Part shown: in pieces, positions 23,806-29,435 of the stretch
Numbering within the stretch: position 1 is the stretch's first letter
How the letters are laid out: the number at the start of each line of letters is the position of its first letter
Assembly (NCBI GenBank): GCA_014382665.1
Contig: JACNJH010000135.1
Coordinates: forward strand, 1-48,552
Length of the DNA stretch: 48,552 nt
Direction of reading: 5' to 3'
Origin: Candidatus Desulfatibia profunda
GTDB taxonomy: Bacteria; Desulfobacterota; Desulfobacteria; Desulfobacterales; UBA11574
Position numbers and translations under genes: made by a program
The notes under the pieces: generated by a model
Told to the model about the DNA's origin: nothing
Database searches by the model: none
What the model saw: the letters and a program-made list of their open reading frames with translations, nothing else

Positions 23806-24762
23806 TTAACGACCCATGATTTTTTCAAGAGCAGGGTTCCGGATAATCGTATCGAAGGTTGCTTGGCGATCTTTGAGTTCAACCAAGTCTTTGAATTTTA
23901 AGGTTAAAGTATATATAGGACCTTCAAAATTATCGGGAGGCGTCAATTTTATTTCGCTTCCAAGCTTTAATTCTTTCATCAGCCGGTCAAAGGTTCTTTC
24001 AGCACTGGTTATGGCAGGGAAACGCCGCTTTTTCAAATAAGATCGTATCATACGGGTCTTTTGACTTTTATCAAGATCTGCGTGTGTTAGAATTTCTTGT
24101 AAACGCTTTTCACGAAGCACTTCCATTACGGCAATTTCCTCACGAAACGCAATTTCCTTTACCAGATTTACAACTTCCCTTTGTTTGTTAAGACTCAATT
24201 TAAGATTTTCAAAAAGTTCTATAAAGCCGTTGCCGGCATCCGGTGCCAAATCGCCCAATTCCAGCGCCATGGCCAAGGAAATCGTATTGAAGAGTATTGC
24301 CCGTTGTATGGGCCGGGAAAGATGACGTATTTTCTGAATTTTTTTGACCAGGGCCGGATTCTGCGGCAAGCTCAAGGACGATAATTTCATGGCCATGGTA
24401 TCGTCATCTTGAACAAAGGCGGAAATTAAGCCGATCGATCTCGATGTCTCGATCAGATTGAGGGGTCTTTGCAGGGCATTGTCTGTGATGGCATATTGGG
24501 CACAATCGATCATGGTTGTTTCAGGATCCAATAGTCTTGCTTCGAGGTGGGACCATCCGAGGCCGCGGCAGGCTTCGATTCTGCGAAATCCTGATACGAC
24601 CGTATATTCCGTATCGTCTCCTATTAACAACGGAGGATTCAACAACCCTACGTGCCTAATGGAAACCATTAGATCGCTGACATTTGTTTCGGTCGTTATG
24701 CGGTAGGTGTTATCTTTGCAATCGATATTGGACAGCTTTACGGTCTGAATTTTAAAGCGCAT
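23806..24762 (-). CDS. ParB N-terminal-domain protein, orphan ParB/Spo0J-like
   Basis: The 318-residue protein has the ParB nuclease/CTPase-type domain: [16 protein letters not shown] near 32-47, [18 protein letters not shown] near 53-70 with the GxRR loop, and [14 protein letters not shown] near 91-104 in place of ENLQR. A helical middle part resembles the KorB/HTH region, and the C-terminus does not look like the usual ParB dimer domain. No parA or parS-like repeat is seen nearby, so it is probably not the chromosome segregation ParB but one of its many relatives of unknown role. The start overlaps the purC end by 11 bp, suggesting coupled translation. Confidence 0.8.
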
Positions 24763-25645
24763 GATTATCGGTAAGTTGTTTTAGTGCTTCCAGGTATTTC
24801 TTACGGGTATTCATGATGACGTTTTCCGGAAGAGCCGGTCCCGGTGGTTTTTGGTTCCAGTTGATGGAAATCAGGTAGTCTCTGAGATATTGCTTGTCAA
24901 AGCTATCTTGCGGGCCACCCGGCCGGTAGGACGTTTTGGGCCAGAATCTGGATGAGTCAGGGGTCAGCACTTCATCGATGAGAATGATATGATCTTGCGC
25001 AAGGCCGAATTCAAACTTGGTGTCTGCAATGATAATTCCTTTTTCTTCGGCCCGCCGGGCGCCTTTTTGATAGATCGCCAGGCTCAGTGTTTTGACCTGT
25101 TCGGCAAGGCTTGCCCCTATTTTTTCCCCAACTGCTTCAAAATCGATATTAATATCATGCTGTCCGATTTCCGCCTTTGTTGATGGCGTAAAAATAGGTT
25201 CGGGGAGTTTATCGGATTCTTGCAGACCTTGCGGCAGTTTTATTCCGCAGATACTTCCGGATTCCTGATATTCTTTCCAGCCGGATCCTGAAAGATAGCC
25301 CCTGACAACACATTCGATCGGGAGTGGCTTGGCCTTTTGAACAAGCATGCTTCGGCCGCGAAGGATGTCGGCATAAGGCTTGCAGGACGCCGGGTAGCCG
25401 TCCACATTGCTCGAAATGAGATGGTTGGGCACCAGAGGTTCCATAATGTTAAACCAGAAAAGGGATATCCGGGTCAAAATCCTGCCTTTATCAGGAATGG
25501 GGTCCGGCATGATGACATCAAATGCAGAAATACGATCCGTCGCCACCATTAAAAGCATATCGCCCAGATCATAAATATCCCGCACCTTGCCTCTTTTCAA
25601 AAGATGAAGCTTTTTAAAATCTGTTTCACGCACGGGCTGGTCCAT
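24752..25645 (-). CDS. purC: Phosphoribosylaminoimidazole-succinocarboxamide synthase
   Basis: This 297-residue enzyme joins aspartate to CAIR in purine synthesis, making SAICAR. Family motifs are clear: [27 protein letters not shown] (shown by its ends [12 protein letters not shown] and ATDRISAFD), [42 protein letters not shown] and [12 protein letters not shown]. Its length, close to 300, fits the longer bacterial and fungal type rather than the ~240-residue type. It leads the small ParB-like gene, which overlaps its end. Confidence 0.97.
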
Positions 25646-25707: not shown

Positions 25708-26061
25708 TTAGAGTCCTTTGAACGCTTTTATATATAACTTTAAAACAACGAGGTCTGCTTCACCCACTTCAAGGAGCTGAATTCCGGATTCAAACTTATC
25801 CTCCTTGCCCGGCTTGGATGTAACAACCTTACCTTTGATTTCGATCAAATCATCTTCCAGGCCTATTGACAGCAAAACGTCGGATTGCGGTTCAATCTGA
25901 ACATGTGTTTCCAAAAGGATACCGCCTTCACTGATGTTTAAGGTCCTGCCCATTCCCTGCATGATTACTTGACCGGCTTCATCCAGGCAATCATAGGATA
26001 TTAGATTGAGGGCCTGAATTCTTGGATGCAGTCTTTTATCTTCTTGCGTCATGGTGTTCAC
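25708..26061 (-). CDS. PilZ domain protein (probable cyclic di-GMP receptor)
   Basis: The 117-residue protein is a single PilZ domain. It has the RxxxR motif as RLHPR (Arg10, Arg14) and the second motif as NISEGG (42-47), which together bind cyclic di-GMP in this family. The rest forms the beta-barrel (VLLSIGLEDDLIEIKGKVVTS) and a C-terminal helix. It is the last gene of a four-gene minus-strand cluster with an MglA-like GTPase, so it may report cyclic di-GMP to that system; this is inferred from position. It lies 22 bp after the cyclic-nucleotide-binding gene. Confidence 0.88.
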   Translation of the reverse strand: MNTMTQEDKRLHPRIQALNLISYDCLDEAGQVIMQGMGRTLNISEGGILLETHVQIEPQSDVLLSIGLEDDLIEIKGKVVTSKPGKEDKFESGIQLLEVGEADLVVLKLYIKAFKGL

Positions 26062-26083
26062 TCAACAGATGTTAGATAGTAGG

Positions 26084-27268
26084 TTAAGTTTTATCGGTTT
26101 TCTTCCGGACGCTTTTTTTGTATAAATCAGATGCCCTCATGGTGGTCACCGATATACAGATTGCCAGATGTTCGATGATGTTTTTAAAAGTGGCTGAAAG
26201 CTGATTATGTTCATTCTTAAAGAGTTCAAGGTCCATCTCGCGGACTTCGAGGTCTTCTGATCCTAAAACCAAAGCCGAAAACGGTTCCTGCGCCATATCA
26301 AGGAAGGGCATGTAACCGAAAAAATCTCTTTCAGCAAGGTTCACCAGGGGCACGTAACCATATTCAGTTTTACGGATAATACAGGCTTCACCTTTTTTGA
26401 TCATGAATAGTTTTTCATTGCTGTCACCCTGTTTAAGAACCGGTTTTTTACCTTTTACAAACTCTTCGATCATGATCTTTTTTAAATGGATGTCAACAGC
26501 CCGATCCGTAACCTGCTTTAACCGTTTGTCAAGACTTAGGAAAAGGCTTCTGAAATCAGGGGACATTCGCGAATAATCGATGCTGAGGCGCTGCGAATCG
26601 AGCACGCCCAGTTGAACATTGCCGACGGCTTGAATCGTGGCGCTGCGAACACTGCCGGATACCAAAAAAGAAGCAATGCTTCCGACAAAGGCACCGTTAC
26701 CGATTCTAAGTATTTTCAAGGACCCTTCCGAAGTTTCTTTACATACTTCGGCAACGCCTTCCAAAATGACCCAGAACCAACTGCCGTGCTTGCCTTCAAC
26801 CGTGATCTTGCTGCCGTCATAGATCTCTTCCTCATCCACCACATACATGTAATCTACCAGCGGCCCCCTGATGATCGGCAGGGTCGGCTCTTTCCCAGGG
26901 TCTTTGGCCTTTTTTTCATAAGTGACCGGACCCAATATTTCGATCTGGCCGTCATCCAGCAAACTTAAGCTGTCTAGAATTATTTCCATGCGGCTTTTCT
27001 TGATAACATTATTGCTGGCAACATTTTCCTCGCTGAATTCAAATTCGCCTTCAAGCCATCCAAAAAGAGCGTTTAGCGCCTCAAGACCGGTGGCTGGGCC
27101 GGCGGAAGCGTCTACCGGATTACCATTAACGATATAGATCAATCCCGGTTGCTGGGCGTATTTACTCTTTATGCGCAGAACCCCGGTGCTGGCGTTTGAG
27201 CCCAAAAGCTGCAGGACGTCGCCCAGACTCAGAAATTTAAGGCTGCCGGCCAAAACGGATGTACTCAT
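26084..27268 (-). CDS. DUF4388 protein with two cyclic-nucleotide-binding-like domains
   Basis: The 394-residue protein begins with a DUF4388 (PATAN-like) domain, residues about 1-105: LAGSLKFLSLGDVLQLLGSN, GVLRI, and LNALFGWLEGEFEF. Two cyclic-nucleotide-binding barrels follow at about 140-250 (VILEGVAEVCKE, GNGAFVGSIASFLVSG) and about 265-375 (KKPVLKQGDSNEKLFMIKKG, ERDFFGYMPFL). Neither barrel shows a full canonical phosphate-binding cassette (GExAL...RxA), so ligand binding is uncertain. DUF4388 proteins often accompany MglA-type GTPases in deltaproteobacteria. The gene lies 12 bp after the MglA-like gene. Confidence 0.8.
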   Translation of the reverse strand: MSTSVLAGSLKFLSLGDVLQLLGSNASTGVLRIKSKYAQQPGLIYIVNGNPVDASAGPATGLEALNALFGWLEGEFEFSEENVASNNVIKKSRMEIILDSLSLLDDGQIEILGPVTYEKKAKDPGKEPTLPIIRGPLVDYMYVVDEEEIYDGSKITVEGKHGSWFWVILEGVAEVCKETSEGSLKILRIGNGAFVGSIASFLVSGSVRSATIQAVGNVQLGVLDSQRLSIDYSRMSPDFRSLFLSLDKRLKQVTDRAVDIHLKKIMIEEFVKGKKPVLKQGDSNEKLFMIKKGEACIIRKTEYGYVPLVNLAERDFFGYMPFLDMAQEPFSALVLGSEDLEVREMDLELFKNEHNQLSATFKNIIEHLAICISVTTMRASDLYKKSVRKKTDKT

Positions 27269-27280
27269 GGATATTTTTTA

Positions 27281-27892
27281 CTACCCTGTCATCATTTCTT
27301 TTTGCAATGATTTTAATGTTAACTTCAAGCATTCCTTTAAGGTTGCCCCGACCCCCTGCCCCGTGAAAGCGCTGCCAGGAAACGAAGATACCTTCAGTTG
27401 TCGGTTTAAGTCCTTTTCCATTTGTTCGATAGACATCAGTGGAAAGCCCTGTTCGGCAAGATCCCTTTTGTTGTACTGCAGAATAAGGGGTATTTTAAGA
27501 ATGCTGATGCCATACTCTTTCAAGTTCTGCTGAAGATCCTTCAGCGATATCATATTTTTTTCCCGTCTGACTTCAAGGGAATCAGCGACAAAAATAACCC
27601 CGTCGACTCCTCTCAAAACCAGTTTCCGGGTAGAGCTGTATTGAACTTGACCGGGAACCGTATACAGTTGGACCCTGACTTCACAGCCTTTTATTTTGCC
27701 AAGTCCGATGGGCAGAAAGTCAAAGAACAGGGTTCGGTCTCCCTCGGTGTTGACGGACACCATTTCACCTTCGATCTGTTTTTTATAGGTTTTGAAAATG
27801 TATTCAAGATTCGTTGTTTTACCGCATCGGCCAGGACCGTAATACACGATTTTACACTCGATTTCCCTTTTTTTTAAATTAAAAATAGCCAT
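27281..27892 (-). CDS. MglA-like Ras-superfamily GTPase
   Basis: The 203-residue protein matches MglA, the polarity switch GTPase of myxobacteria. The P-loop is GPGRCGKTT (19-27) preceded by KIVYYG, the switch region is EGDRTLFFDFLPIGLG, the Walker B region is YTVPGQVQYSSTR, and the base-specificity motif is NKRD. MglA-type proteins usually keep a Gly-to-other change in the P-loop and are turned off by MglB; no mglB-like gene is seen in the window. I start at MAIFNLKKREIECKI (27892), the family N-terminus; the frame is open five codons further. It lies inside the PilZ/DUF4388/repeat-protein cluster. Confidence 0.9.
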   Translation of the reverse strand: MAIFNLKKREIECKIVYYGPGRCGKTTNLEYIFKTYKKQIEGEMVSVNTEGDRTLFFDFLPIGLGKIKGCEVRVQLYTVPGQVQYSSTRKLVLRGVDGVIFVADSLEVRREKNMISLKDLQQNLKEYGISILKIPLILQYNKRDLAEQGFPLMSIEQMEKDLNRQLKVSSFPGSAFTGQGVGATLKECLKLTLKSLQKEMMTG

Positions 27893-28026
27893 ACAATTAA
27901 ACCTCAAATCAAAGTAAATGCTGACCTAACCCGGTTGATTAGAGTGCCCAGTCAGCACTCTAAATAAATTTTTCAAATTTTTCAAGACCTTTCATTTTAA
28001 TATGAGTTGTTCATGGGAAGTCCAGG

Positions 28027-28995
28027 CTAAGTACTGACAATCTTTAGCTCTATGTTGTAATCTCCGCGTCTGGGGCCGGATTCAATCTTGTTCTTGGCGG
28101 AAACAATAGCGGCACCTTCAAACATGGCGATGGGAGAATAAAATTGAATGTCTTTTAAGGTGTCTCCTTCCTTGAAAAATTCTATCAAATCTTTATCCGT
28201 GTGTGAAACAAGCAGGCTGATCACATTGCCGGACTGGAAGCTGACATTCAATTCCACCACTTGCCCGTCTTGGGATCCGCCAGCGAGGGTAATGCCGACC
28301 GAGTTGATATCAATGACCTCGTCGTCTTGAATCTCATTTACCTCCAACTCGGGTTCCTCGGTTTTTGGTTCCTTGATTTCAGGCATTTCAATCGTCGGTT
28401 CCTGGGTTATCACCGGCGCTTCAGCCCCAGGAAGCTTTTTGTCTATCCCCTCTTTTTTCAGAAGGCTTTGCAAAAAAATCCGCAGTTTGTTCAATTCTCC
28501 CGGCCTAAAGATATCGCTGGAAATCCACCGTTCATACTGGCCAATTGCAGCATCCGCCGAAGTATGCGTCAGATGACATCGGATAATATTCTTGGCGGCA
28601 ACTACCCGGACGGAATCTTTTTTCAATAATTCATTAAATTCCAATAATGCTCTTTCATGCTGTCCAAACTTCGCCAGGGCCATTGCTCCATCAAGGGCGG
28701 CAGTGTCAGGGTCATCTTCCGCCGAAAAAGCAAACAATTTTTTGATTAGATCCTGTACGTTTTCAGGGACTTCAGGTAAGTCCGAGGTCTCCGCGACCTT
28801 GCGGATATCTTTTTCAAGAGCACTGATTTTTTTCAAGATGCCGGATACCAGGTTTGTTCTGCTTTTCAACTGTTCGTTGCCCTGGATCAGTGCCGATGCG
28901 TTCTGATATTTTCCCATGGCCTCGTTGAGTAATCCCATGGAATGATAAAGTTCTGCCTCTTTTAGTAATGCCTTTATCTTTTCAACGACATTCAT
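28027..28995 (-). CDS. TPR-like helical protein with acidic linker and C-terminal beta domain
   Basis: The 322-residue protein has three parts. Residues 1-200 look like helical repeats of TPR type (AELYHSMGLLNEAMGKYQNA, FGQHERALLEFNELLKK). Residues about 200-235 form an acidic, Pro-rich linker (EPTIEMPEIKEPKTEEPE). The last 85 residues form a beta-rich domain (SGNVISLLVSHTDKDLIEFFKEGD) recalling PilZ-type barrels without the RxxxR motif. It is the first gene of the MglA-like cluster, and its repeats could dock the GTPase or its partners. I do not recognise a named family. The ATG at 28995 is preferred over 29007 because it begins MNVVEKIK. Confidence 0.7.
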   Translation of the reverse strand: MNVVEKIKALLKEAELYHSMGLLNEAMGKYQNASALIQGNEQLKSRTNLVSGILKKISALEKDIRKVAETSDLPEVPENVQDLIKKLFAFSAEDDPDTAALDGAMALAKFGQHERALLEFNELLKKDSVRVVAAKNIIRCHLTHTSADAAIGQYERWISSDIFRPGELNKLRIFLQSLLKKEGIDKKLPGAEAPVITQEPTIEMPEIKEPKTEEPELEVNEIQDDEVIDINSVGITLAGGSQDGQVVELNVSFQSGNVISLLVSHTDKDLIEFFKEGDTLKDIQFYSPIAMFEGAAIVSAKNKIESGPRRGDYNIELKIVST

Positions 28996-29213
28996 ATGCA
29001 ACCTCATAAAATAGCGAAGCTCGGCCTCACCGGCCCGTAACGGTCCGGGATAAACCGACGAGGCTTCGTGACGCTGATTGGAGAGAAAAGGAAATCCCGA
29101 TTCATCAAGAGATTGTTTGCCGAAAATGCTAAAAAACTTGCAAAAAATTTTATACTGTTTTTATATTTCATGTCAACCACCAGAAACTGAGAAATTCATA
29201 GAAGGAAAATCTT

Positions 29214-29435
29214 ATGGATAAAAAAGTGACCGTTGTCGGAGCCGGGAATGTCGGCGCAACGGCGGCTCAACGGCTGGCTGAGAAAGAATTGTGCGATGTG
29301 GTCCTGATTGATATTAGCGCCTATTATGCACCGGCTTCGGCCGCCGTGGAAATGGCGGAATCTATTTTGAAGGATAAAAAGAAGATGTTGAGGAACCAGC
29401 CTTCTTATTTTAGAGGTCAGATCAATTCTTCATGA
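29214..29435 (+). pseudogene. mdh: Malate dehydrogenase remnant with large in-frame internal deletion
   Basis: The 73-codon frame starts with an intact malate dehydrogenase N-terminus: MDKKVTVVGAGNVGATAAQR, with the GAGNVGA NAD loop, then LCDVVLIDI. It jumps directly to SAYYAPASAAVEMAESILKD, a stretch that belongs about 190 residues later in the enzyme. It then leaves the family after KDKKKML and runs out to a stop inside the end of uvrC. The middle with the catalytic His and Arg residues is gone. A good Shine-Dalgarno (AGAAGGA) remains, so a short product could still be made. The overlap with the uvrC end (29417-29435) marks the rearrangement point on the right. Confidence 0.85.

Follow-up and report, generated by a model that had tools for sequence, protein, structure and literature searches.

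MglA circuits described so far

MglB usually serves as the off-switch of MglA in the systems that have been investigated. MglA GTPases of Group 1 were defined by Wuichet and Sogaard-Andersen in 2014, in a survey that lists only the Bdellovibrio MglA and SofG of M. xanthus as characterised orphans and that also reports MglA/PATAN neighbourhoods in general (PMC4316618). In M. xanthus, MglA-GTP influences where PilB localises by way of SgmX, a TPR protein (PMC7519303), and PATAN proteins co-occur with SgmX in STRING (PMC11580455). PATAN domains bind PilB in cyanobacteria (PMC10519157, citing Han 2022), where PATAN-REC regulators are known or proposed to bind PilB1, the pilus motor, and so to steer type IV pili (PMC7690835; PMC10519157). 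Finally, Bdellovibrio is already known to have an MglA that lacks MglB, partners with a TPR protein and is linked to c-di-GMP (PMC3983030; PMC11025332).

A four-gene cluster in Candidatus Desulfatibia profunda

The window, that is the whole stretch of 48,552 nucleotides that was analysed, contains four genes on the minus strand that together span positions 25708-28995, as the first-pass annotation had proposed. In the direction of transcription they encode a TPR-like protein, a GTPase of the MglA type, a protein that combines DUF4388 with two cyclic-nucleotide-binding barrels (DUF4388-CNB2) and a PilZ protein; purC and a ParB-like gene come next. The TPR-like adaptor (322 aa, 28027..28995, minus strand) was called as an open reading frame with a further in-frame ATG at 29007. 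It is separated by 137 nt (27890..28026), which hold a 9-bp hairpin at 27939-27963, from the gene of the Ras-like GTPase (202 aa, 27281..27889, minus strand), whose start was placed at the ATG at 27889 rather than at the listed TTG at 27907 because its homologues start at this ATG. After only 12 nt follows the DUF4388-CNB-CNB protein with its long C-terminal helix (394 aa, 26084..27268, minus strand), delimited by Pfam, sequence and fold, and after a further 22 nt the single-domain PilZ protein (117 aa, 25708..26061, minus strand), which starts with GTG and has an in-frame ATG at 26052. Co-transcription of all four genes is likely, with the TPR gene as the uncertain member since the hairpin lies in the gap behind it.

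The GTPase keeps the Group 1 active site

The identification of the GTPase as a Ras-like protein of the MglA type holds on several lines, including its open reading frame, an Arf/Ras-type Pfam match (E 1e-6), a match to the M. xanthus MglA crystal sequences (E 7e-60), the tree and the alignment. Its motifs, GPGRCGKTT, Arg53, TVPGQ and NKRD, place it in MglA Group 1, for which the arginine beside the G2 threonine and the TVPGQ form of the G3 motif are diagnostic. In the tree it belongs to a clade, here called W, that is monophyletic (support 99/96) and that pairs, at 100/98, with a sister clade made up mostly of MglB-linked MglAs; both lie within a larger mglBA radiation, apart from the group of M. 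xanthus MglA. V-P-G-Q is invariant in the 124 W sequences, the window protein having the full TVPGQ, and the catalytic positions are similarly well kept (G21 in 122/124, Arg53 in 116/124, Gln82 in 124/124). W proteins differ from their MglB-linked relatives at position 12, where E stands against Q or H, and sharply so in the C-terminal helix and at S86 and S87, just past the switch II glutamine. These residues predict that W proteins can hydrolyse GTP but present a changed surface to their partners.

The three partner proteins

The PilZ protein (Pfam E 9e-9) had been called a cyclic di-GMP receptor-type protein, which its residues bear out: R10, R14, S44 and G47 are invariant in 39 sequences and position 42 is N in 36 and D in three, so that both the RxxxR and the [D/N]xSxxG motifs of c-di-GMP receptors are present. 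With its motifs intact, it is a predicted c-di-GMP receptor.

The reading of the next protein as two cyclic-nucleotide-binding-like barrels on a DUF4388 domain agrees with Pfam, which finds DUF4388 (26951-27250, E 1e-15) and, in two stretches, cNMP_binding (E 2e-20), corresponding to CNB-A (about 26585-26824) and CNB-B (about 26201-26467), all on the minus strand. The tandem barrels resemble those of PKA regulatory subunits in sequence and in fold (E 3.5e-13). CNB domains that bind cAMP carry a Glu and an Arg in the phosphate-binding cassette, a pair found in neither barrel: in CNB-A, Ser occupies the expected Glu position in 57/62 sequences while Arg208 is kept in 62/62, and in CNB-B the Glu position is variable and the EPxxA segment has no conserved Arg. 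Sensing of cAMP is therefore not predicted, and the barrels are expected from their residues to have a structural role or a ligand other than cAMP. The first-pass annotation had second-messenger sensors take the place of MglB. Because the barrels lack the canonical cAMP contacts, the sensing part of that idea is carried by the PilZ protein with its intact motifs.

We take DUF4388 to be the same as the PATAN domain, the N-terminus of PatA; our literature search found no paper naming both PATAN and DUF4388, nor one naming both MglA and DUF4388. A DUF4388 match also occurs in Synechococcus elongatus, and a search of plasmids with the DUF4388 domain gave no match.

The first protein of the cluster gives only sub-threshold TPR matches in Pfam. 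Its AlphaFold2 model (pLDDT 85) confirms the helical repeats and the acidic linker noted at first, as helical hairpins at residues 3-181 and a disordered acidic segment at residues 196-225, and adds a C-terminal beta-barrel that had been overlooked (about residues 230-322, about 28030-28308), in which the motifs FQSGN and FYSPIAIF are conserved among 61 aligned homologues. Foldseek returns TPR folds and, over about 90 columns, the PilZ protein MrkH (5ked, E 6e-3), an alignment presumed to cover the C-terminal barrel. Neither Pfam nor PDB sequences nor a PilZ profile gives a credible match for this barrel, so that a PilZ-type barrel is suggested by the fold search only; as the c-di-GMP motifs of PilZ are absent from it, we refrain from naming it a c-di-GMP receptor. 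Going by its modelled TPR-like fold, the protein is a candidate MglA effector.

Paralogues of the TPR protein occur in other settings, namely in an operon of a DUF4388 receiver, TPR, mglB and mglA (L174), beside a PilZ gene (L175, L176), in an operon of CheA and DUF4388 receivers (L177) and, in a single genome, beside two MshEN-bearing PilB-type ATPases, one of which also has a CNB domain (L178). A profile match to DUF4388 at L178:7090-9333 was rejected, since it is this CNB domain on the PilB-type ATPase. As paralogues recur beside mglBA, DUF4388 and PilZ genes, their context points to a recurrent adaptor family of MglA/DUF4388/PilZ circuits.

Conservation across Desulfobacterales

Of 118 genomes drawn evenly from one order, Desulfobacterales, 88 carry a W GTPase, carriers being defined by a best E below 1e-91. 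Each of these 88 also encodes DUF4388-CNB2, adjacent to the GTPase in 85, with a median of 25 nt between the two matches; in the other three the matches lie on separate contigs, in two of them with the W GTPase near a contig end. The two genes are inseparable in this order. The TPR protein is present in 73 carriers and missing from 15, and PilZ adjoins DUF4388 in 28 of 30 well-covered W loci and was not found in the remaining two, so neither is essential, and DUF4388-CNB2 is the only obligate partner of the W GTPase. Relatives of DUF4388-CNB2 and of the TPR protein occur in five genomes lacking a W GTPase; in two of the five, DUF4388-CNB2 has kept its place before purC and the ParB-like gene, which looks like loss of the GTPase from that locus.

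Gene order, proposed as a check on the cluster, is kept in relatives, and the lack of co-occurrence that had been named as grounds for refutation is not seen. Among 80 GTPase loci, labelled Desulfobacterales, Desulfobacteraceae, Desulfosarcina and similar, or plain Deltaproteobacteria/Proteobacteria, 68 show the full order TPR-GTPase-DUF4388-PilZ, and several of the other 12 end at contig edges. Across the 80 loci the GTPase is 75-92% identical to that of the window, the neighbouring purC, a housekeeping gene, less so (62-80%). It could be argued that the four genes stay together without joint function, simply because the uvrBC-mdh-purC region is stable, and purC, the ParB-like gene and uvrBC are indeed neighbours in most loci. 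This is very improbable given that the four genes remain together where those neighbours are gone: two loci have them without purC (L079, L082), and a locus from another order has them as PilZ-TPR-GTPase-DUF4388 with different flanks, beside an MscS-type channel gene (L095). The close spacing of GTPase and DUF4388 genes speaks against it as well, as does the absence of both DUF4388-CNB2 and the TPR protein from all 17 genomes without any MglA. Since the GTPase of L095 falls inside the W clade, the four-gene set has moved or been rearranged as a unit, and co-occurrence together with the changed flanks led us to reject chance neighbourhood. The assignment of the module to Desulfobacterota stands for most of one order plus one sampled genome of another rather than for the phylum at large, elsewhere in which the sister MglAs mostly have MglB.

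A module without MglB

No Roadblock protein exceeded the cut-off in a genome-wide Pfam search of the window's genome, and a dedicated MglB profile gave no match there at E<=0.01, with positive controls at E 1e-58 and 1e-60. The Roadblock GAP of the canonical MglA/MglB polarity module is thus missing by two profiles, and the initial remark that no mglB is seen is true of the whole genome and not merely of the locus. A canonical mglBA locus elsewhere had been named as the finding that could account for polarity control instead: the window's genome has none, its second mglA being a relic of 88 codons (C250:22362-22625), whereas most relatives do have mglBA, which is intact, for instance, in another genome of the same family (G115). 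Sister GTPases outside the order, at 54-64% identity, mostly have a Roadblock-family gene directly upstream, with Pfam checks on examples.

Within the order, 25 of the 88 W carriers (the window's genome and 24 of the 87 others) have no MglB by Pfam and the dedicated profile, two of them being single-contig assemblies. A Roadblock protein is present in the other 63, which would allow for the W GTPase still being regulated by the MglB of a paralogous mglBA locus, or by a highly diverged one. MglB is known to position the Arg53/Gln82 chemistry of MglA, and W proteins keep both residues. Such regulation is nevertheless unlikely in view of the 25 carriers without MglB and of the sharp departure of W from MglB-linked proteins in the C-terminal helix and just past the switch II glutamine. 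Moreover, of the W carriers with at least two MglA matches, 61 of 65 have a Roadblock protein, vs 2 of 23 with the W GTPase only (Fisher p 3e-14); in this order Roadblock proteins track a second, canonical MglA. We therefore regard the cluster as an MglB-independent MglA module, with a probability of roughly 0.9.

Here the catalytic apparatus is complete across a large clade, down to the G21 form that is elsewhere paired with MglB, and yet in some members MglB is missing from the whole genome. This makes the shut-off of MglA without MglB directly testable, with a single obligate candidate partner. DUF4388-CNB2 is the best candidate among the partners for the missing GTPase regulator. That it represents a novel type of MglA regulator, acting as GAP or GEF in place of MglB and coupling the GTPase cycle to a barrel ligand, is a speculative and rather doubtful extension; if true, a prokaryotic Ras switch would be under the control of a small-molecule messenger rather than of a Roadblock GAP.

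A possible role in type IV pilus control

In the window's genome, MshEN is present on all three PilB/GspE-type ATPases, and there are two PilT-type ATPases as well; PilT occurs in 115/118 genomes of the order and, being near-universal, does not discriminate. By analogy with the described circuits, there is a somewhat better than even chance that the W module controls type IV pili, at the step of extension. MglA-GTP would act via the TPR adaptor and the PATAN-like DUF4388 protein on a PilB-type extension ATPase and so license the place or time of pilus extension. The DUF4388 end of DUF4388-CNB2 might contact the motor in the way that cyanobacterial PATAN domains contact PilB, while the PKA-R-like tandem barrel could be structural or sense a ligand other than cAMP, and may also set the GTPase cycle; c-di-GMP would enter through PilZ, alongside the MshEN domains of the ATPases. 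Of the polarity or type IV pilus control module first suggested, a conserved MglA module without MglB and pilus motors in the same genome are observed, and the connection between them is drawn by analogy. Such a circuit would join PATAN-like, PilZ and TPR proteins in pilus or polarity control in environmentally important sulphate reducers.

A possible but clearly less probable reading is that the module, with the GTPase still a switch and DUF4388 still docking on a target, serves some other activity at the cell surface or envelope, for example exopolysaccharide, biofilm or gliding, with a target other than PilB and the pili incidental. PilZ proteins often act on polysaccharide synthesis, and no pil gene was noticed adjoining a W cluster in the loci inspected. 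In addition, the window's genome has another DUF4388 inserted in a ParA/MinD-like protein with chain-length-like genes adjacent, in what is likely a polysaccharide cluster, so DUF4388 is not specific to pili. Against this, a TPR paralogue adjoins PilB-type ATPases (L178), and the known outputs of MglA-TPR and of PATAN proteins act on PilB (PMC7519303; PMC10519157). Control of pilus extension is the reading we retain.

Comparison with known systems

The W module shares with MglA/MglB of M. xanthus, which controls type IVa pili with SgmX, FrzS and SopA, the Group 1 active-site motifs and a TPR protein as candidate effector. It differs in having no MglB, in forming one compact cluster where the M. 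xanthus genes are scattered, and in its DUF4388-CNB2 and PilZ partners; its TPR protein has 322 aa and a C-terminal barrel, whereas SgmX is about 1,060 aa long and carries TPRs at each end.

The invasion-pole hub MglA-TPR(Bd2492)-RomR-CdgA of Bdellovibrio bacteriovorus likewise has an MglA that lacks MglB, together with a TPR protein as partner and a protein that binds c-di-GMP (PMC3983030). MglA of Bdellovibrio has S21, in place of the G21 of MglB-linked MglAs, alongside the loss of MglB (PMC3983030), whereas W keeps G21 without MglB; the hub genes do not form one cluster, and the consulted passages on the hub mention no DUF4388-CNB2 protein.

Other Desulfobacterota have mglB-mglA loci in which genes for DUF4388 receivers, CheW-like proteins and histidine kinases occur; these contain sister GTPases and DUF4388 nearby, but there MglB is directly beside mglA and the annotated DUF4388 domains sit on receivers or alone, not on tandem CNBs. 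The cyanobacterial PATAN-REC regulators PixE, PixG and LsiR presumably carry the same domain under the control of a receiver, while here DUF4388 is joined to tandem CNBs next to a GTPase gene. PKA regulatory subunits, the best fold and sequence matches of the barrels, have the same tandem arrangement; unlike them, CNB-A has Ser for the cAMP-binding Glu with the Arg kept, and CNB-B has neither.

MglA-PATAN neighbourhoods and MglB-less (orphan) MglAs were thus already known. New relative to the literature consulted are the defined cluster, the order-wide obligate pairing of the GTPase with DUF4388-CNB2, MglB independence at the level of genomes and the adaptor family.

Neighbouring genes of the cluster

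Next to the four-gene cluster lie purC and an overlapping ParB-like gene (23806-25645 of the window), which are conserved as its neighbours across the order Desulfobacterales, as delimited by record titles; the product of the ParB-like gene matches ParB_N with an E-value of 4e-4. Also beside the cluster, on the forward strand (29214-29420), is a remnant of the malate dehydrogenase gene mdh in which codons 1-34 are fused in frame to approximately codons 224-257. Relatives carry an intact mdh at this position, and an intact copy is also present at another site in the genome of the window (C98:27468-28394).

Related genes at other loci

The second mglA of the same genome is a truncated relic (C250:22362-22625; loci L005 and L188) with no adjoining mglB. 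An additional, stand-alone MglA paralogue, found in several families (L134-L138), is placed within the clade of the cluster's GTPase, and in four of the five sequences Leu replaces the catalytic Arg53, a substitution which suggests that this paralogue is possibly a GTP-locked form. Other Desulfobacterota have MglA-like G domains that carry extensions, in open reading frames that are longer, at roughly 300-480 aa (L123, L125-L128, L130, L132).

The DUF4388 domain recurs in the genome of the window as an insertion in a ParA/MinD-like protein (contig C106, L195:3939-5189), the surroundings of which look like a polysaccharide export cluster. In genome G108, a further, incomplete copy comes after the gene for the GTPase's constant partner, DUF4388-CNB2 (L158:6831-8860); the match of this copy is limited to the cNMP-type barrel (CNB) part. 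Lastly, a paralogue of the helical-repeat TPR protein adjoins two PilB-type ATPases in a single genome, G133 (L178:5896-11793), their architectures being GAF-MshEN-T2SSE and MshEN-T2SSE-CNB.
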